The position numbers were made by a program, and so were the translations under genes. Shown here piece by piece: positions 30,697 to 41,980 of a DNA stretch of 64,000 nt. The notes under the pieces are model-generated. The model had not been told where the DNA came from, ran no database searches, and saw only the letters and a list, made by a program, of their open reading frames with translations. Position 1 is the first letter of the stretch, and each line of letters opens with the position of its first letter. Origin of the DNA: Christiangramia sediminis (GTDB lineage: Bacteria > Bacteroidota > Bacteroidia > Flavobacteriales > Flavobacteriaceae); NCBI RefSeq assembly GCF_020552705.1, contig NZ_JAJBZG010000005.1, forward strand, positions 248,001 to 312,000, written 5' to 3'.

Positions 30697-31257
30697 TTAT
30701 TGTACTTTAAGTTTGAATTCACCCGTAATATTTTTTGATTGAGATTTATCATTGGCATTGTAAACCATAATATCGAAATTACCTTTTAAATTTTCTCCAT
30801 CCCATAAGGTAATTTCAAGATAGCCGTCTTCTCCGGTATCATAAAGGGAATACCAGGAAATACCAAAATCGAAAAAATTACAGTTATTTTTCTGTTCTTT
30901 CCCGGTCTTATAAATTCCTTCGCCATTAAAGTTTTCAATATTACCTCCCAGTCTTTGCAATTCATTAGAACTTGTTTCTTCCATTTTTCCCCAAAAACTC
31001 AGAGAATGATATAATTCACCAGAACGTGAATATCTGGCAACTAATTCGGCACCTAATTTCTTTTCACTTTGGTTTTTTGTTCCAGCTCCAAAAATTATAT
31101 CCCTGGTTCCTAATTTAAGGTAGATAAATTCTTCATAATTTTCAGTATTTATTGGTTCTGAATTTTGTTGAATTTCATCCGGAGATAGATCATTGTCATC
31201 TGCCTGGCAGGAAATAAAAAGAAGAGAAACTAAAAAGAATTTGATAAGAATACGCAT
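30697..31257 (-). CDS. Predicted lipoprotein, unknown function
   Basis: A 186-residue protein from ATG 31257 with lipoprotein signal (MRILIKFFLVSLLFIS-C). A TTG three codons upstream opens a longer frame but the ATG is preferred. The mature part is acidic and probably beta-rich (GDFGISWYSLYDTGEDGYLEI-like strands, shown here only as the pieces ISWYSLYDTGEDG and NFDIMVYNA). No family recognised. A palindrome lies just upstream. Confidence 0.65.
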   Translation of the reverse strand: MRILIKFFLVSLLFISCQADDNDLSPDEIQQNSEPINTENYEEFIYLKLGTRDIIFGAGTKNQSEKKLGAELVARYSRSGELYHSLSFWGKMEETSSNELQRLGGNIENFNGEGIYKTGKEQKNNCNFFDFGISWYSLYDTGEDGYLEITLWDGENLKGNFDIMVYNANDKSQSKNITGEFKLKVQ

Positions 31258-31264
31258 GGCCCCC

Positions 31265-31281
31265 AAGTTTAAATTAAACTT
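31265..31281. repeat. Palindrome AAGTTTAA-A-TTAAACTT
   Basis: Perfect 8-base arms with a one-base centre, 7 bp upstream of the lipoprotein ATG at 31257. It could be an operator for that gene; inference only. Confidence 0.35.
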
Positions 31282-34463: not shown

Positions 34464-34976
34464 CTATTTTTTTGATTGTTTGTATAAAGGAACTGATGAA
34501 CATGCTTCTCCATACATAAGGCTTTTCACAACGGGTTGTAATTTATTTATCAGAAAAATATAAGCATTTTTGGGTACTGGCCTGTTTGAACAACCCTTAA
34601 TAATAACCGATTTATCTGTTAAATCTGAAACATCTAATTGCTCAATAATTTCCTGATATAGATGACTTTCAAGAATTTCCAGATCACCTATAACTACTTT
34701 TTTTGCGTAAGGCTCAAGGTAAGTGCTTACCAGCATATATGCCCAGGCAGGCACGATCGCATCTGTAGAACAAGTAAGCGCCACGAACTTATCCTGGTAT
34801 TGAGACCAGTCATGTTGTTTAGCATACTCCCTGAAATCCTTTTCTTTTAAAACAAATCCTTCATAAAGCCACTGGCTAAGATCAAAAAGAAACCTTTCCC
34901 CTTTTGGATAGTGATCCTCAAGGTTAAAGGTTATCAGTTTACTTTGAGCGACCCGATTTAATATCTCTTCCGCCAT
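34464..34976 (-). CDS. DUF2480 family protein
   Basis: A 170-residue cytoplasmic protein. The pattern DLSQWLYEGFVLKEKDFRE, then ALTCSTDAIVPAWAYMLV and a final segment CSNRPVPKNAYIFL, is characteristic of DUF2480, a Bacteroidetes-specific family found with SUF genes. Three Cys residues (in LTCST, KGCSN and EACSS) could bind a metal or cluster. It is 9 bp downstream of the DUF59 gene and is probably an Fe-S-related accessory factor, by context only. Confidence 0.8.
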   Translation of the reverse strand: MAEEILNRVAQSKLITFNLEDHYPKGERFLFDLSQWLYEGFVLKEKDFREYAKQHDWSQYQDKFVALTCSTDAIVPAWAYMLVSTYLEPYAKKVVIGDLEILESHLYQEIIEQLDVSDLTDKSVIIKGCSNRPVPKNAYIFLINKLQPVVKSLMYGEACSSVPLYKQSKK

Positions 34977-35310: not shown

Positions 35311-35733
35311 TTAGTTCAATTGCGTTTGGTATGCCAATGCATACATTTTTAGTTGTTTGATCATACTCACCAAGCCGTTGGCTCGTGTTGGAGATAAATG
35401 CTCTTTTAAGCCAATTTCATCAATAAATTTGGTGTCGGCTTCAATAATTTCTGAAGGATGTTGTTCTGAAAATACTCTAATAAGAATTGCCACGATACCT
35501 TTAGTGATTATAGCATCACTGTCTGCCGTGAAAGCAAGTTTATTTCCTTCAAGTTCAGCATGAACCCATACTTTACTTTGGCAACCTTTGATCAAATTCT
35601 CGTCAATCTTATATTTTTCGTCAATAAGAGGAAGAGACTTTCCCAGCTCTATCATATATTCATAGCGCTGCATCCAGTCATCAAACATTGAAAACTCATC
35701 AATTACCTCCTGTTGTTTTTCCTGAATCGTCAT
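35311..35733 (-). CDS. sufE: Cysteine desulfuration protein SufE
   Basis: A 140-residue SufE that takes persulfide from SufS and passes it to SufB. The catalytic Cys is in LIKGCQSKVWV, in the expected position in the first third. The segment GLVSMIKQLK near the C-terminus is also typical. The gene follows a lipoprotein gene 37 bp upstream and is separated from sufS by that gene and a terminator. Confidence 0.93.
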   Translation of the reverse strand: MTIQEKQQEVIDEFSMFDDWMQRYEYMIELGKSLPLIDEKYKIDENLIKGCQSKVWVHAELEGNKLAFTADSDAIITKGIVAILIRVFSEQHPSEIIEADTKFIDEIGLKEHLSPTRANGLVSMIKQLKMYALAYQTQLN

Positions 35734-35770: not shown

Positions 35771-36202
35771 CTATTCAACATTTTCTGCCAATCTTAAAAT
35801 AGCCTCCACTAATGGCTTTACTTCTGCCGGCGGATTACCGTGATCGAATGAATTAGTCTTAAAAATGGTATCATTCTTACGCACACTCAGGAGCGCATGA
35901 AGGGCGGCATCTGATGCTCTGGAGTCTGATGGAGCTTTTAATTTGCTCATTTCTGAAATATCGATATTTTGAGCAGTATTCACCAGAGAATTCCACTTTG
36001 CTGGAGTGATATTATTTGAATTTTCATTAGAATTCAAACCTGTACTTTTTACCTGAATTTTATCAGGAGTTACGGTATATATGGTTGAAGAACCCCGGGT
36101 AAAGGTTTCGTAGGTAAAGGATTCAATTGAATCTATTTTCTGGTTGGAACAATTATTAGTAGAGAAGAACATCATTATAAGGACTAAAAAAGAAATTTTC
36201 AT
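35771..36202 (-). CDS. Predicted lipoprotein in the suf locus, unknown function
   Basis: A 143-residue lipoprotein from ATG 36202 (MKISFLVLIMMFFSTNN-C). A longer frame starts at GTG 36247 inside the sufS terminator and is rejected. The mature part has TYETFTRGSSTIYTVTPDK and a serine/aspartate-rich middle; no family recognised. It sits between the sufS terminator and sufE, so it leads the second part of the locus. Confidence 0.7.
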   Translation of the reverse strand: MKISFLVLIMMFFSTNNCSNQKIDSIESFTYETFTRGSSTIYTVTPDKIQVKSTGLNSNENSNNITPAKWNSLVNTAQNIDISEMSKLKAPSDSRASDAALHALLSVRKNDTIFKTNSFDHGNPPAEVKPLVEAILRLAENVE

Positions 36203-36291: not shown

Positions 36292-37530
36292 CTATTGTAG
36301 CATCATTTTGGCCTTTTTCAATGCATCGATGAAAAGGTCAATTTCATGAAAAGTATTATAAAAAGAGAAGGATGCTCTAACGGTTCCTGGAATCTTAAAG
36401 AAATCCATCACGGGTTGGGCACAATGATGTCCGGTACGCACCGCAATTCCCATTTTATCCATTAACGTGCCTATATCATAAGGATGTAAGCCTTCAATAT
36501 TAAAAGAGATAACAGCCGTTTTTTCAGCAGCTTCACCGTAAATTTTTACGCCATCAATTTTTTTGAGTTCATTGGTAGCGTACTCTAAAAGTTCGTGCTC
36601 GTATGCCGCAATTTCATCAAATCCAATTGCATTCATATAATCTATTGCAGCACCAAAAGCGATTCCACCACATATATTAGGTGTACCGGCTTCAAATTTA
36701 TGCGGAAGACCCGCATAGGTAGTTTTTTCAAAAGAAACAGTAGCGATCATTTCACCTCCACCCTGATAAGGTGGAAGTTTTTCCAGCCACGCTTCTTTTC
36801 CATAAAGGATACCAACTCCTGTTGGACCACACATCTTATGCGCTGAAACAACATAAAAATCCATGTCCAGTGCCTGTACATCTGCTTTAATATGCGGAGC
36901 GGCCTGCGCTCCATCAATCAGAACAGCCGCATCTACAGAATGGGCTTTCTCAATCACAGACTTAATTGGATTTACCGTACCCAGGGCATTTGAAACATGA
37001 TTAAGAAATACCAGTTTTGTATTAGAACTAATAAGTTTCTCAAATTCTGAATAGACAAGTTCTCCCTTTTGATCCATAGGGATCACCTTAAGCTTAGCCC
37101 CGGTCTTTTCACAAAGCATCTGCCACGGAACGATATTGGAATGATGTTCCATTGCCGAAACCAGGATCTCGTCACCTTCTTTCAGAATAGAAGAAAATCC
37201 GCTGGCAACCAGATTAATTCCATGAGTGGTACCCGATGTAAATATGATCTCATGGGCTTTTTCCGCATTAAAATGCTTCTGGATCTTGATCCTCGCCTGC
37301 TCATATTTATCGGTAGCTTCCTGGGATAAAGAATGCACGCCCCTGTGAATATTGGCGTTATAATTAGAATAATAATCCACGATCGCATCCATCACCTGCT
37401 TAGGAGTCTGCGCCGTGGCGGCATTATCAAAATAAACCAAAGGATAGCCATTAACCTTGCGGTTAAGTATTGGAAAATCCTTTCGGATCTTTTCAACCTC
37501 AAAAGTATTTGTTTGAGTTTGCTGACTCAT
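36292..37530 (-). CDS. sufS: Cysteine desulfurase SufS
   Basis: A 412-residue PLP enzyme that removes sulfur from cysteine. The PLP Lys is K232 in SAHKMCGP, and the active Cys is C370 in TGHHCAQP, both in group II (SufS/CsdA) positions. NIHRGVHSLSQEATDKYEQAR is the standard N-terminal signature. It is 24 bp downstream of sufD and followed by a terminator. Confidence 0.96.
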   Translation of the reverse strand: MSQQTQTNTFEVEKIRKDFPILNRKVNGYPLVYFDNAATAQTPKQVMDAIVDYYSNYNANIHRGVHSLSQEATDKYEQARIKIQKHFNAEKAHEIIFTSGTTHGINLVASGFSSILKEGDEILVSAMEHHSNIVPWQMLCEKTGAKLKVIPMDQKGELVYSEFEKLISSNTKLVFLNHVSNALGTVNPIKSVIEKAHSVDAAVLIDGAQAAPHIKADVQALDMDFYVVSAHKMCGPTGVGILYGKEAWLEKLPPYQGGGEMIATVSFEKTTYAGLPHKFEAGTPNICGGIAFGAAIDYMNAIGFDEIAAYEHELLEYATNELKKIDGVKIYGEAAEKTAVISFNIEGLHPYDIGTLMDKMGIAVRTGHHCAQPVMDFFKIPGTVRASFSFYNTFHEIDLFIDALKKAKMMLQ

Positions 37531-37554: not shown

Positions 37555-38871
37555 TTAAAGCTTATTAAAACCCAGATCTACCTCTAGTTTTGAAGCGATC
37601 AGTTTGTTAATTCTCTTCTTAACTTCAGGGATTTTAACGCTTTCAAGTACATTATTAGCAAATGCATACATCATCAATCCACGAGCTTCCTTACGAGGTA
37701 TCCCTCTGGATTGTAAATAGAACAATGCATCTTCATCCAGCTGCCCTATAGTACAACCGTGGCTACAAGCTACATCATCTGCAAAGATCTCTAACTGAGG
37801 TTTTGAATTGATAGTTGCTTTATCATCTGCCAGGATATTGTTATTAGACTGATAGGCATTGGTTTTCTGAGCTTCTTTCTCCACCAAAACTTTTCCATTG
37901 AAAACCCCGGTAGAACTATCTCCGAAAATCCCCTTGTAATCCTGGTGACTCTCACAGTTTGGTTCAATATGATGAACCAAAGTATTGTGATCTACATGCT
38001 GTTTACCTTCAATGATAGTAACTCCTTTCATGGTAGAATCTATACGCTCACCTTTCTGGTAGAAATTCAGATTGTTACGCGTAAGTTTTCCGCCGAAAGA
38101 AAAAGTATGCACAGAAACGTGACTCTCATCTTTCTGCTCCACGAAAGTATTATCAATCAAGGAAGCGGATGCATTATCATTCTGAATTTTATAATAATCA
38201 ACAATCGCTCTTCTATCTGCAAAGATCTCGGTTACAGAATTGGTAAGCACCGGGTGATCTGTAAGACTTTGATGTCTTTCAATGATCTGGACATGAGAAT
38301 TCTCTTCCACTACTACCAGATTTCTTGGTTGAAGCATTAAAGAAGATTCATTCCCGGTCGCGAAATTCACGATCTGTATAGGCTTATCGGCCTGCTTATT
38401 CTTATGAATATGAATAAAGGCTCCTTCTTTGGCAAACGCAGTATTTAAAGAATTTAAACCCGTTTTAGGAGCTATTTTATTAAAGTAATTGTCTATTACC
38501 GGTCTGTATTTATCCTTAGTTAATGCAGACGACATCAGGCAAACATCGATCTTCTCATGTGTTGTTTGAGACAGGTGTGAAGAATAGATCCCGTCAATAA
38601 AAACAAGGTCATAGGTATCAATATCGTGGATCAGATATTTTTTGATATCACGATAATCAATGGCATCTTCTTTTTTTGGAAATACGCTATAATCATGTTT
38701 CAATATAGTATTGAGCGAAGTATATTTCCAGTCCTCCTCCTTTTTACTGGGAAAACCAAGGCTTTCAAAGTCCTTGATCGCCTGATTTCTAATGGAGTCC
38801 ATTCCATTATCAGGTTCCAGCCCTTCTTCAAAGGCTAAAAATGATGAGATAAGTTTATCTTTTAATTCCAT
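37555..38871 (-). CDS. sufD: Fe-S cluster assembly protein SufD
   Basis: A 438-residue member of the SufBCD scaffold. I start at ATG 38871 (MELKDKLISSFLAFEEGLE) rather than a TTG seven codons upstream. The beta-helix core contains IIERHQSLTDHPVLTNSVTEIF, and the C-terminal segment SHGCTIGQLDEDALFYLQSRGI with the His of HGCTIG is the SufB/SufD signature. A short repeat-rich gap separates it from sufC. Confidence 0.95.
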   Translation of the reverse strand: MELKDKLISSFLAFEEGLEPDNGMDSIRNQAIKDFESLGFPSKKEEDWKYTSLNTILKHDYSVFPKKEDAIDYRDIKKYLIHDIDTYDLVFIDGIYSSHLSQTTHEKIDVCLMSSALTKDKYRPVIDNYFNKIAPKTGLNSLNTAFAKEGAFIHIHKNKQADKPIQIVNFATGNESSLMLQPRNLVVVEENSHVQIIERHQSLTDHPVLTNSVTEIFADRRAIVDYYKIQNDNASASLIDNTFVEQKDESHVSVHTFSFGGKLTRNNLNFYQKGERIDSTMKGVTIIEGKQHVDHNTLVHHIEPNCESHQDYKGIFGDSSTGVFNGKVLVEKEAQKTNAYQSNNNILADDKATINSKPQLEIFADDVACSHGCTIGQLDEDALFYLQSRGIPRKEARGLMMYAFANNVLESVKIPEVKKRINKLIASKLEVDLGFNKL

Positions 38872-38880
38872 TCTTTTCAA

Positions 38881-38946
38881 TTTCGTGTTCAAGATTTAAA
38901 GTTCAAGATTCATTTAGTCTGAAATCCTGAAATTTGAATACTGAAT
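38881..38946. repeat. Short direct repeat in the sufC-sufD gap
   Basis: GTTCAAGATTTAAAGTTCAAGATTCA contains two copies of GTTCAAGATT. It looks like degenerate dispersed repeat sequence of the kind seen between genes in flavobacteria, similar in style to the sdhA-sdhB gap. Confidence 0.4.
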
Positions 38947-38949
38947 TAT

Positions 38950-39702
38950 TTAAACGGCTTTCTCTGGCTTTACCCAATCATAACCTCTTTCTTCCAACTC
39001 GTGAGCCAGTTCTTTTCCACCTGACTTCACGATCTTACCATCTACCATTACATGTACAAAATCTGGTACGATATAGTTCAATAATCTCTGGTAATGAGTA
39101 ATAAGCAACACAGCATTATCTTCTCTTCTAAGCTTGTTTACCCCATTGGCAACGATTTTAAGTGCATCTATATCAAGACCCGAATCGGTTTCATCAAGAA
39201 TAGATAATTTGGGATCTAATATCGCCATCTGAAAGATCTCATTTCGCTTTTTCTCACCTCCTGAAAATCCCTGATTAAGAGAACGCGATAAAAATTTACG
39301 ATCTATTTCCAGCATTTCAGACTTATCACGGATCATTTTCAGCATTTCATTTGCCGGCATATCCTCTTTTCCATGAGCTTTACGCTGAGCATTAATAGCC
39401 GTTTTAATAAAGTTTGTTACCGAAACTCCTGGAATTTCCACTGGATATTGAAAAGAAAGAAAAATGCCTTTATGAGCTCTTTCTTCAGGATCCATTTCAC
39501 GAAGATCGGCTCCTTCAAAGATCATCTCCCCATCAGTCATTTCATATTCTTCCCTTCCTGCAATTACAGAAGAGAGTGTACTCTTCCCCGAACCGTTAGG
39601 TCCCATGATTGCATGAACTTCTCCCGGATTGATCTCAAGATCAATTCCTTTAAGGATTTCCTTATCTTCTATGCTGGCGTGTAAATTCTTTATTTTAAGC
39701 AT
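38950..39702 (-). CDS. sufC: Fe-S cluster assembly ATPase SufC
   Basis: A 250-residue ABC ATPase that powers the SufBCD complex. Walker A is GPNGSGKST, the signature is FSGGEKKR, and Walker B LSILDETDSGLD is followed by the H-loop TH in LLITHYQR. I start at ATG 39702 (MLKIKNLHA); a TTG three codons upstream is less likely. It lies between the lipoprotein gene (39744) and sufD. Confidence 0.96.
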   Translation of the reverse strand: MLKIKNLHASIEDKEILKGIDLEINPGEVHAIMGPNGSGKSTLSSVIAGREEYEMTDGEMIFEGADLREMDPEERAHKGIFLSFQYPVEIPGVSVTNFIKTAINAQRKAHGKEDMPANEMLKMIRDKSEMLEIDRKFLSRSLNQGFSGGEKKRNEIFQMAILDPKLSILDETDSGLDIDALKIVANGVNKLRREDNAVLLITHYQRLLNYIVPDFVHVMVDGKIVKSGGKELAHELEERGYDWVKPEKAV

Positions 39703-39743
39703 GTTTATCAATTCTGAATCTGCCTCAGCAGATATTTAATTTT

Positions 39744-40133
39744 CTATTTTTTTTCTATTGTATCGGAAGCTTTTGCGACCTGAGGAACTTTAATAATTTC
39801 CCTTATCTCTATTACTTCCTCCCAACCTTCCTGCGCGGGATTTGGTAGTATTTTTGCTTTTACCGTTACCGGAATCATTTCAAAGTCATCTTGTTTCACC
39901 GGACTAACCTGGTCTGAGAGCACCTGAGACATAGAATCTAAAGTAACCCCATATACAAAACCATCTCCCCTTAATACTGCCGCGTCTGCCACATATATAA
40001 ATTCTCCTTCCAGCACCTGAATACTATCCGGGACTTTTTCAGCCTGGGGCTGATCCATTAGCTCCCTACGATCTTCATCCTGACAGGAAAAGAGAATCAT
40101 ACTTAGTATCAATAATCCAAATAACTTCTTCAT
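39744..40133 (-). CDS. Predicted lipoprotein embedded between sufB and sufC
   Basis: A 129-residue protein with lipoprotein signal MKKLFGLLILSMILFS-C17. The mature part is charged; a strand-like block (GEFIYVADAAVLRGDGFVYGVTLDSMSQ cut as GEFIYVADAAVLRG and VYGVTLDSMSQ) is followed by KAKILPNPAQEGWEEVIEI. I recognise no family. It is in the same direction as the suf genes with 21 bp to sufB and 41 bp to sufC, so it is part of the operon. Why an exported protein is embedded here is unclear. Confidence 0.75.
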   Translation of the reverse strand: MKKLFGLLILSMILFSCQDEDRRELMDQPQAEKVPDSIQVLEGEFIYVADAAVLRGDGFVYGVTLDSMSQVLSDQVSPVKQDDFEMIPVTVKAKILPNPAQEGWEEVIEIREIIKVPQVAKASDTIEKK

Positions 40134-40154: not shown

Positions 40155-41600
40155 CTATCCTACGGAACCTTCCAGGGAAATTTCAAGTAGTTTTTGAGCT
40201 TCAACTGCAAATTCCATCGGCAACTTATTCAATACTTCTTTACTAAAACCGTTCACAATTAATGCAATCGCTTTTTCAGTATCAATACCACGTTGATTAC
40301 AATAAAAGATCTGGTCTTCTCCAATCTTACTGGTAGTCGCCTCATGCTCTACCTGGGCCGATTTGTTCTTAACCTCAATATACGGGAAGGTATGCGCACC
40401 ACACTTGTTACCCATTAACAGGGAATCACATTGCGAGAAGTTCCTGGCATTGTGAGCACGCCCGTTAATTTGAACGAGTCCACGATATGAGTTTTGAGAT
40501 TTACCTGCCGAAATACCTTTAGAAATGATTGTACTCTTGGTATTCTTTCCAAGGTGGATCATTTTTGTTCCGGTATCTGCCTGCTGATAATTATTGGTTA
40601 CCGCAATTGAATAAAATTCTCCTACAGAGTTATCTCCTTTTAAAATACAACTAGGATATTTCCAGGTTACTGCTGAACCAGTTTCAACCTGAGTCCAGGA
40701 GATTTTTGCGTTTTTCTCACAAAGTCCTCTCTTAGTAACAAAATTGAAAACTCCTCCCTTACCTTCTTTGTTTCCCGGAAACCAGTTTTGAACGGTACTA
40801 TATTTAATTTCTGAACCATCCAGAGCCACAAGCTCTACCACAGCTGCGTGTAATTGATTTTCATCACGCGAAGGTGCAGTACAACCTTCCAGGTAACTTA
40901 CATAACTATCTTCATCAGCAACTACCAATGTTCTTTCAAACTGGCCGGTTCCCGCCTGATTAATTCTAAAGTAAGTTGATAGTTCCATAGGGCAACGAAC
41001 TCCTTTTGGAATGTAACAGAAAGAACCATCACTAAATACAGCAGAATTCAATGCTGCATAGAAATTATCTTTTTTAGGAACCACCGTACCTAAATATTTC
41101 TTCACCAATTCAGGATGTTCCTTGATAGCTTCAGAAATCGAACAAAAAATAATTCCTTTTTCAGCCAGGGTCTTTTTAAACGTAGTAGTAACAGATACAG
41201 AATCCATCACGATATCTACCGCGACTCCGGCAAGTTTTTTCTGCTCATCTATAGAAATACCCAACTTCTTGAAAGTATCCAGTAATTCAGGATCTACCTC
41301 ATCCAGACTGTCGTATTTCGGTTTTTTATTAGGAGCAGAATAATAAGAGATATTTTGAAAGTCCGGTTTTGGGTAATGTACATTAGCCCATTCCGGTTCG
41401 ATCATATCTTCCCAGGCGCGGTATGCTTCCAAACGCCATTCAGTCATCCATTCCGGTTCTTCCTTCTTTTTAGAAATTGCCCGCACGATATCCTCGTTCA
41501 AGCCCACAGGAAAAGTATCAGATTCTATGTCTGTATAAAATCCATACTCATACTCTTTGGTTTCGAGCTCTTTCTTTAAATCGTCTTCAGTATATGCCAT
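40155..41600 (-). CDS. sufB: Fe-S cluster assembly scaffold SufB
   Basis: A 481-residue SufB. Typical features are AFWPESEC-like [23 protein letters not shown] (here [15 protein letters not shown]), the [19 protein letters not shown] motif with His/Cys near the C-terminus, and SLEGSVG at the end. It is the sulfur acceptor of the SufBCD complex and is followed by a lipoprotein gene and sufC. Confidence 0.96.
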
Positions 41601-41650
41601 TATTGCTAATTCTAACTAGATTAACGTCAATCTAAATTGACGTATTAATT

Positions 41651-41980
41651 TTACAGTGAAAAACTTTCACCGCATCCGCAGGTTCTTTGCGCATTGGGAT
41701 TATTAAACACAAATCCCTTACCGTTCAATCCTCCTGAATATTCCAGGATAGTTCCGGCTAAATACAACACACTGCGTTTATCTACAACGATCTTTACCTC
41801 GTTATCTTCAAAGACTTTATCGCCTTCGGCCTGGCTCTTATCAAAATTCAATTCATAAGATAAGCCAGAACATCCACCACTCTTAACACCAACACGAACG
41901 TAGTCGGCCGAAGGATTGAAACCTCCTTCAGACATCAGGGCGGAAATTTTACTTTTAGCTTCTTCGCTAACTTTAATCAT
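41651..41980 (-). CDS. sufA: A-type Fe-S carrier protein (SufA/IscA/HesB family)
   Basis: A 109-residue HesB/IscA-like protein with the three conserved cysteines C37 (GGCSGL), C101 and C103 (TCGCGE). It accepts clusters from SufBCD and hands them to targets. It heads the suf operon, 50 bp upstream of sufB, and has a -7 box TATATTTG upstream. Confidence 0.94.
   Translation of the reverse strand: MIKVSEEAKSKISALMSEGGFNPSADYVRVGVKSGGCSGLSYELNFDKSQAEGDKVFEDNEVKIVVDKRSVLYLAGTILEYSGGLNGKGFVFNNPNAQRTCGCGESFSL

Follow-up and report, generated by a model that had tools for sequence, protein, structure and literature searches.

The stretch of DNA analysed here (64,000 nucleotides of Christiangramia sediminis, referred to as the window) contains a suf operon on its minus strand. 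From 41980 to 33556 the gene order is sufA-sufB-lip1-sufC-sufD-sufS-lip2-sufE-sufT-DUF2480-DUF3078, where lip1 and lip2 denote the genes found between sufB and sufC and between sufS and sufE. The features are as follows.

41651-41980, minus strand: sufA (IscA-like A-type carrier), which opens the operon; identified by reading of the sequence and by synteny
40155-41600, minus strand: sufB; named by sequence and synteny
39744-40133, minus strand: lip1, located between sufB and sufC, predicted 129-residue lipoprotein whose OB domain resembles the C-terminal one of NlpE
38950-39711, minus strand: sufC; TIGR01978 over cut-off
37555-38892, minus strand: sufD; TIGR01981 over cut-off
36292-37530, minus strand: sufS; TIGR01979 over cut-off
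35771-36202, minus strand: lip2, 143-residue protein, likely exported, between sufS and sufE
35311-35733, minus strand: sufE; PF02657
34986-35309, minus strand: SufT-like DUF59 Fe-S assembly protein; TIGR02945 at 4e-41, just under cut-off
34464-34976, minus strand: DUF2480 protein; PF10652
33556-34503, minus strand: DUF3078 protein with a signal peptide-like N-terminus; PF11276

Names were taken from Pfam or NCBIfam for SufC, SufD, SufS, SufE and the SufT-like DUF59 protein, and from sequence reading and synteny for SufA and SufB. The sufB query (P0003) gave a match at E 1e-40 in 79/80 and 64/64 genomes searched.

The original prediction of a lipoprotein gene between sufB and sufC, in the direction of the operon and with small gaps, was confirmed. 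The gap of lip1 to the upstream sufB is 21 nt and that to the downstream sufC 32 nt, with all genes on one strand. No terminator-like site was found on the minus strand of the sufB-sufC interval. Spacing, direction and the lack of such a site indicate that lip1 would be read on one transcript with its neighbors. A promoter-like site (9/12) was observed directly upstream of lip1 at 40186-40157. Sites of this kind occur at chance level (34 found, 28.9 +/- 5.3 expected), and lip1 may have an own promoter with the qualification that this site is a chance-level one. A Bacteroidetes-type promoter motif gave 2 matches in the window, at chance level and none of them near the operon. The sufA-sufB spacer holds a hairpin with a perfect 8-bp stem at 41624-41643 (ACGTCAAT/ATTGACGT). 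Four further loci (L204, L208, L213, L214) have hairpins at the same place with partly different sequence, and no hairpin excess was found in general across 108 sufA-sufB spacers. Another lipoprotein-like ORF was seen at 30697-31266, with a sub-threshold match to NCBIfam Riean_0653 (22.9 of 57 bits).

We then looked at lip1 as a protein. Its N-terminus (MKKLFGLLILSMILFSCQDED) reads as a lipoprotein signal, with a hydrophobic stretch followed by the lipobox LFSC and Cys17. This cysteine is invariant in 23/23 aligned genus relatives, which puts the lipoprotein reading beyond chance. Among the 69 aligned sequences of the wider family, 66 have a lipobox-like sequence. By its type II signal peptide and lipobox cysteine lip1 is thus predicted to be lipidated. 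The residues following the lipid cysteine are QDE or QDD in 19/23 genus sequences (CQDE/CQDD). This is loosely similar to the export signal (LES) of surface lipoproteins, described as QKDDE-type with a polar or basic residue followed by acidic residues at +2 to +6 (PMC5080379). Such a motif, together with the place of the gene in the operon, would fit a direct service to SUF, for instance by a lipoprotein on the cell surface passing iron or haem on to an importer. The motif is, however, not kept in the family, since 40/69 sequences start with CKN. The nearly invariant residues (G43, A52, V53, Y61, V63, L72, K80, D85, V89, W104, I110, I113) look mostly structural and include no His, and no Cys besides the lipid Cys. 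Also, SufBCD is cytoplasmic. Direct iron supply is therefore the least probable reading that we considered, and we give it almost no weight.

The AlphaFold (AF2) model of lip1 predicts a single folded domain, an OB fold at residues 37-115. The pLDDT was about 93-95 at residues 41-90 and had a mean of at least 85 over residues 41-120. When the model was compared with solved structures, Escherichia coli NlpE ranked first with both Foldseek and VIA-align. The Foldseek E value was 3e-3, with no row under 1e-3. VIA-align superposed the C-terminal domain of NlpE (2z4i) with a Z of 10.5 over 82 residues and an rmsd of 2.6, the next entry reaching 7.6. A profile search of solved structures with lip1 did not find NlpE. 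Against the Pfam family NlpE_C (PF17185, gathering cut-off 22 bits) the window protein scored 14.7 bits, below the cut-off, and lip1 was the sole place in its own genome to match NlpE_C at E 1 (E 0.09, also below the cut-off). The orthologues gave higher scores. Eight of ten chosen lip1 orthologues were over the cut-off (best 35.1 bits), compared to 0/5 others scanned, and 36/69 family sequences matched at E 0.1 or better. Sub-threshold Pfam names such as GvpO had also come up for lip1 and were dropped as the larger set of sequences pointed to NlpE_C. A literature search found no paper on NlpE with the OB fold.

The predicted fold and these Pfam scores raise the question of whether lip1 takes the part of NlpE in this family, signalling envelope problems with lipoproteins or redox state to a sensor kinase, with the suf supply following iron and oxidative stress. 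NlpE of E. coli (CutF; PF17185, PDB 2z4h/2z4i) shares with lip1 the lipoprotein nature and, as predicted, the OB fold. Its C-terminal domain, which forms its own disulfide, is reported to have a presumed role in the sensing of adhesion, whereas the N-terminal domain is reported to be enough for lipoprotein and copper stress to activate Cpx (PMC6593411). In contrast to NlpE, the Pfam scan of lip1 found no N-terminal NlpE family. The disulfide is absent as well, a second cysteine past the lipid Cys being present in 0/23 genus and 4/69 family sequences. For the periplasmic domain of CpxA (CpxA_peri, PF16527), the own genome gave nothing at E 1; one genome of the control set exceeded the cut-off, and E. 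coli was among the three with a match. Finally, the gene stands inside suf. By these tests lip1 could at best do the work of one half of NlpE and is not an NlpE sensor, and we regard a sensor function as very unlikely.

Next, the conservation of lip1 was determined. In the genus, lip1 was present in 24/24 sampled genomes, in 22 of them between sufB and sufC and in two at contig ends. Identity to the window protein was 52-80% in the other genus genomes, and that of SufB was 94-99%. The dN/dS of the mature protein was about 0.085-0.09 (14 sequences, 48 of 91 genus pairs usable), a rough value as dS was about 2 and near saturation. Purifying selection acts on lip1.

Christiangramia belongs to the Flavobacteriaceae, and the genus profile matched 171/299 genomes of this family at E 1e-3. 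Strong matches (E 1.5e-7 or better) accounted for 165 of these, and 6 were weak (3.6e-6 to 3.8e-4). The places of 150 of the 165 strong matches, one per genome, were listed and checked by script; they comprise 148 fetched family loci and two genus genomes in the draw. Second matches, all weaker, occurred in 14 genomes and are not among these 150 places. Among the 150 strong places listed, 147 are between sufB and sufC in the direction of the operon, the remaining three (L082, L286, L304) are beside sufB or sufC at a contig end, and none is outside suf. In one locus (L063) lip1 is present according to the mature profile and is overlapped by a long ORF on the opposite strand. The named carriers are Christiangramia/Gramella, Salinimicrobium, Mesonia, Haloflavibacter, Winogradskyella and Psychroserpens. 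Their 30 loci, of which 16 are Christiangramia/Gramella and many identical to genomes of the genus search, have lip1 between sufB and sufC in 28 cases and at contig ends in two.

No match was found in 128/299 family genomes. Of these, 80 were searched for sufB, which was found in 79. All 50 checked loci of lip1-negative genomes were without lip1 according to the mature-domain profile. Where both sufB and sufC were present (n = 49), the gap was empty in 38 loci and held a MomL-like gene in nine and a four-helix protein in two. Thus lip1 is dispensable. A search of 296 genomes of the order gave nine strong matches, each from the own family; the best one after these (E 1.6e-6) was due to the signal peptide. 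At the order level, the weak matches obtained with the full-length profile (E 1.6e-6 to 1e-3) covered mostly model positions 1-50 and were likewise rejected as signal peptide matches. With the mature-domain profile (A4), 395 genomes of the phylum gave seven matches, again all in the own family. In 40 suf loci from 13 other families of the order there was no mature-profile match at E 0.01, and one large genus of the own family (g128) had no strong match in either draw. At most 14 candidates per genome were scored, of up to 88 in the family search, 264 in the order search and 21 (among the rows shown) in the phylum search. Therefore, absences in family and order are less sure than those seen with the mature domain in the phylum.

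Inheritance of lip1 was followed on a FastTree phylogeny of SufB+SufC, in which many forks were weakly supported (195 rows used of 198; L304, L169 and L286 dropped as partial). Presence of lip1 required 12 changes, compared to 39-49 in 200 label shuffles. Distances of the lip1 domain correlated with SufB+SufC distances (r 0.50, 146 rows), and the best of 300 shuffles reached 0.16. Inheritance of lip1 is tree-like. The original prediction had left open a coincidental insertion. The fixed place of lip1 across the family, 150/150 of the strong places listed being in the suf operon, leads us to reject coincidence for this gene, in line with tree-like inheritance and purifying selection. The original prediction had also named relatives that lack the genes or have them elsewhere as evidence to the contrary. 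Lack of lip1 was found (128/299 without match, and six weak), and relocation was seen at none of the 150 places listed.

Genes other than lip1 were also found at the sufB-sufC junction. Lipoproteins of the metallo-beta-lactamase type, similar to MomL, were present in 8/148 lip1-positive and 9/49 lip1-negative family loci (L122, L125, L127, L131, L140, L141, L145, L153, L164, L055, L060, L080, L106, L116, L244, L276 and L311), either alone or on either side of lip1. The label MomL-like was given by place, lipobox, the motif SH[TI]HFDH and one Pfam Lactamase_B match, that is, by features and not by comparison with the MomL sequence itself. The MomL-like proteins of L116 and L141 had been taken for lip1; the likeness came from the signal peptide and was ruled out by the mature profile. 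On the SufB+SufC tree the MomL-like genes needed 14 changes for 16 carriers (one carrier, L131, was missed by the pattern and is omitted), equal to the 13-16 seen in shuffles. MomL-like genes thus come and go. In one other family (f5), 19/20 loci had both sufB and sufC in reach and 15 of these 19 hold an intervening ORF. These ORFs are mostly cytosolic by eye, with L317 and L323 as exceptions that look exported. Judged by eye, the f5 gaps (L317-L336) contain acetyltransferases, GxxExxY proteins and VapBC-like (toxin-antitoxin-like) pairs. The junction therefore appears as a general landing place, and as it takes unrelated genes, finding a gene in this slot does not by itself speak for a function. 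In the other 12 families, 19/20 loci had sufB and sufC, with a gap of 123 nt or less in 18/19.

Other junctions of the operon were compared in the same way. In the family draw, gaps above 200 nt were found in 11/165 cases at sufA-sufB, 10/177 at sufC-sufD, 5/109 at sufD-sufS and 0/13 at sufE-sufT. The sufA-sufB gap exceeded 200 nt in 11/15 named Christiangramia loci, and the sufT-DUF2480 gap in 6/13 other named relatives. Insertion is thus not confined to sufB-sufC and sufS-sufE. In the Christiangramia loci whose sufA-sufB insert could be read, the gap holds, by eye, a four-helix protein of the 23S-rRNA-intervening-sequence type. Such proteins stand there in the relatives L199, L200 and L201 and are absent from the window.

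These data bear on a reading in which lip1 is a passenger. A permissive and well expressed sufB-sufC junction would have received lip1 once in an ancestor of the family, and the gene would have been kept for its expression level, with no tie to iron or Fe-S clusters. The many unrelated genes that the junction carries in Flavobacteriales (MomL-like, four-helix, and the f5 acetyltransferase and toxin-antitoxin-like genes), the shuffle-like scatter of the MomL-like genes and the inserts at sufA-sufB all argue in its favor. A gene kept for dosage only should now and then stand elsewhere, however, and lip1 was outside suf in 0 of the 150 places listed. In addition, a dN/dS near 0.09 is incompatible with a neutral passenger, although still compatible with an unrelated useful gene. 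We consider the passenger reading rather unlikely, though it is the alternative that we take most seriously.

The second gene, lip2, gave a mixed picture. It starts with ATG and directly precedes sufE. A hydrophobic N-terminus is present in 16/16 lip2 relatives, and an exported protein is likely. The lipobox is poor in most relatives (FSTNNC or FAANDC), and 3/16 pass the lipobox pattern. The exported part of the earlier claim of a second lipoprotein gene before sufE is therefore retained, and the protein may or may not be a lipoprotein. In the genus, lip2 stands directly before sufE in 19/24 genomes, with sufS within reach on the other side in 16. A 20th genome (G006) has a distant lip2 relative located elsewhere. 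When loci with sufS and sufE in reach were counted with repeats removed, lip2 was present in 16/16 from the genus and 7/13 from other named relatives. The other 6/13 have a META-domain lipoprotein in the sufS-sufE gap. The META-domain (HslJ-like) protein occupies the lip2 position in L087, L088 and L215-L220; one member was assigned by Pfam. Both sufS and sufE were reached by 19 loci of the family draw, with 17 gaps of 200 nt or less, two META-domain genes and no lip2. This count has a length bias, as stretches of 8.4 kb extend to sufE chiefly where the sufS-sufE gap is short. A match to the lip2 profile after sufS was found in 8/40 family stretches. Thus conservation of lip2 is established for the genus and for Winogradskyella-like relatives, not for the family as a whole. 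The positions were to be checked for conservation across flavobacteria; this holds for lip1 in about half of the family, and is established for lip2 only in the genus and some relatives. Between sufS and lip2, six loci (L032-L035, L041, L048) have a further lipoprotein of about 320 residues that looks by eye like a secreted metalloprotease; its first 200 residues had no Pfam match.

A sub-threshold match to DUF6438 was obtained for 10/19 lip2 relatives, and a literature search found no paper on DUF6438. The predicted model of lip2 (pLDDT 82) was similar to Mago nashi. Eight Mago nashi entries gave a Z of 9.8-11.2 over 106-113 residues, with the next row at 4.7, and Foldseek gave E 4e-4 with a TM-score of about 0.48. 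In eukaryotes, Mago nashi belongs to the core of the exon junction complex. Thus, the lip2 model has a Mago-like fold, but lip2 is a presumably exported bacterial protein and there was no sequence match in either direction: PF02792 matched nothing in the own genome at E 10, and the lip2 profile (A2) found no Mago chain among solved structures at E 10. With no sequence support for common descent, the resemblance of the model may be a chance likeness of a small alpha/beta fold.

Among open papers on suf operons in this group, two cases were judged relevant. In Muricauda olearia Th120, momL lies between sufB and sufC, and co-transcription with suf was reported from similar qPCR levels (PMC5484670). 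In that report dipyridyl raised sufA and sufD about 2-fold, indole under dipyridyl raised sufA, sufD, sufE and momL 6- to 7-fold, and indole under H2O2 raised these genes 3- to 4-fold; the arrangement was called unreported elsewhere in 2017 (PMC5484670). The case shares with lip1 a gene for a secreted protein, the sufB-sufC slot and the family. In contrast, MomL is an AHL lactonase unrelated to lip1, and the MomL-like genes are scattered whereas lip1 shows a tree-like distribution over about half of the family. The second case is RAYM_06482 of Riemerella anatipestifer, annotated as 'Outer membrane lipoprotein nlpE' and present with suf genes in a list of iron-responsive genes (PMC5609570, Table 3). 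Its locus tag lies between those of SufB (06467) and SufD (06507), similar to lip1, and the source gives the protein by annotation only. As strong lip1 matches in the order were confined to the own family and the 40 suf loci of other families gave none, RAYM_06482 may be another kind of NlpE, and serves as a lead only.

Based on these observations, we favor with some confidence the reading that lip1 is a stand-alone OB lipoprotein of the NlpE_C type, a member of the suf operon in about half of the Flavobacteriaceae that is coupled to it by shared expression. It would most likely be an envelope product of the suf (iron and oxidative stress) regulon and not a part of SufBCD. The gene would be transcribed with sufBCDS, and the amount of lip1 would rise as Fe-S assembly is raised under iron shortage or oxidative stress. 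After export and lipidation on Cys17, the protein would stay in the envelope, and there a putative ligand or partner relevant under the same stress could bind to its OB domain. Coupling to Fe-S assembly would run through shared expression, with no contact to SufBCD. Together with spacing and direction, the precedent of momL co-transcription suggests that the signal that induces suf also brings lip1 to the envelope, and an envelope link at the level of expression is plausible by this analogy. Of the suggested link between envelope status and Fe-S assembly, shared expression thus appears likely from the momL case in the same slot. A role in sensing or reporting envelope status stays hypothetical.

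To our knowledge, SUF has been treated as a purely cytoplasmic machine and the suf operon as intact. A bolder reading is that the suf operon of the Flavobacteriaceae is a combined Fe-S and envelope regulon. The sufB-sufC junction and, in some genera, sufS-sufE would be standing places for exported proteins (an NlpE_C-type lipoprotein, a MomL-type protein, a META-domain lipoprotein, a Mago-fold protein), and lip1 would serve the response to iron and oxidative stress as its dedicated arm in the envelope, needed under Fe-S attack. The length bias of stretches that reach sufE and the inserts at sufA-sufB weigh against this proposal, and we consider it doubtful. If an envelope lipoprotein is indeed a regular part of the suf operon in about half of the family, there may be a wired connection between Fe-S stress and the cell envelope in these bacteria. 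The data also widen the momL-suf arrangement from one strain to a recurrent one, and a free-standing NlpE C-terminal domain gains a genomic context.
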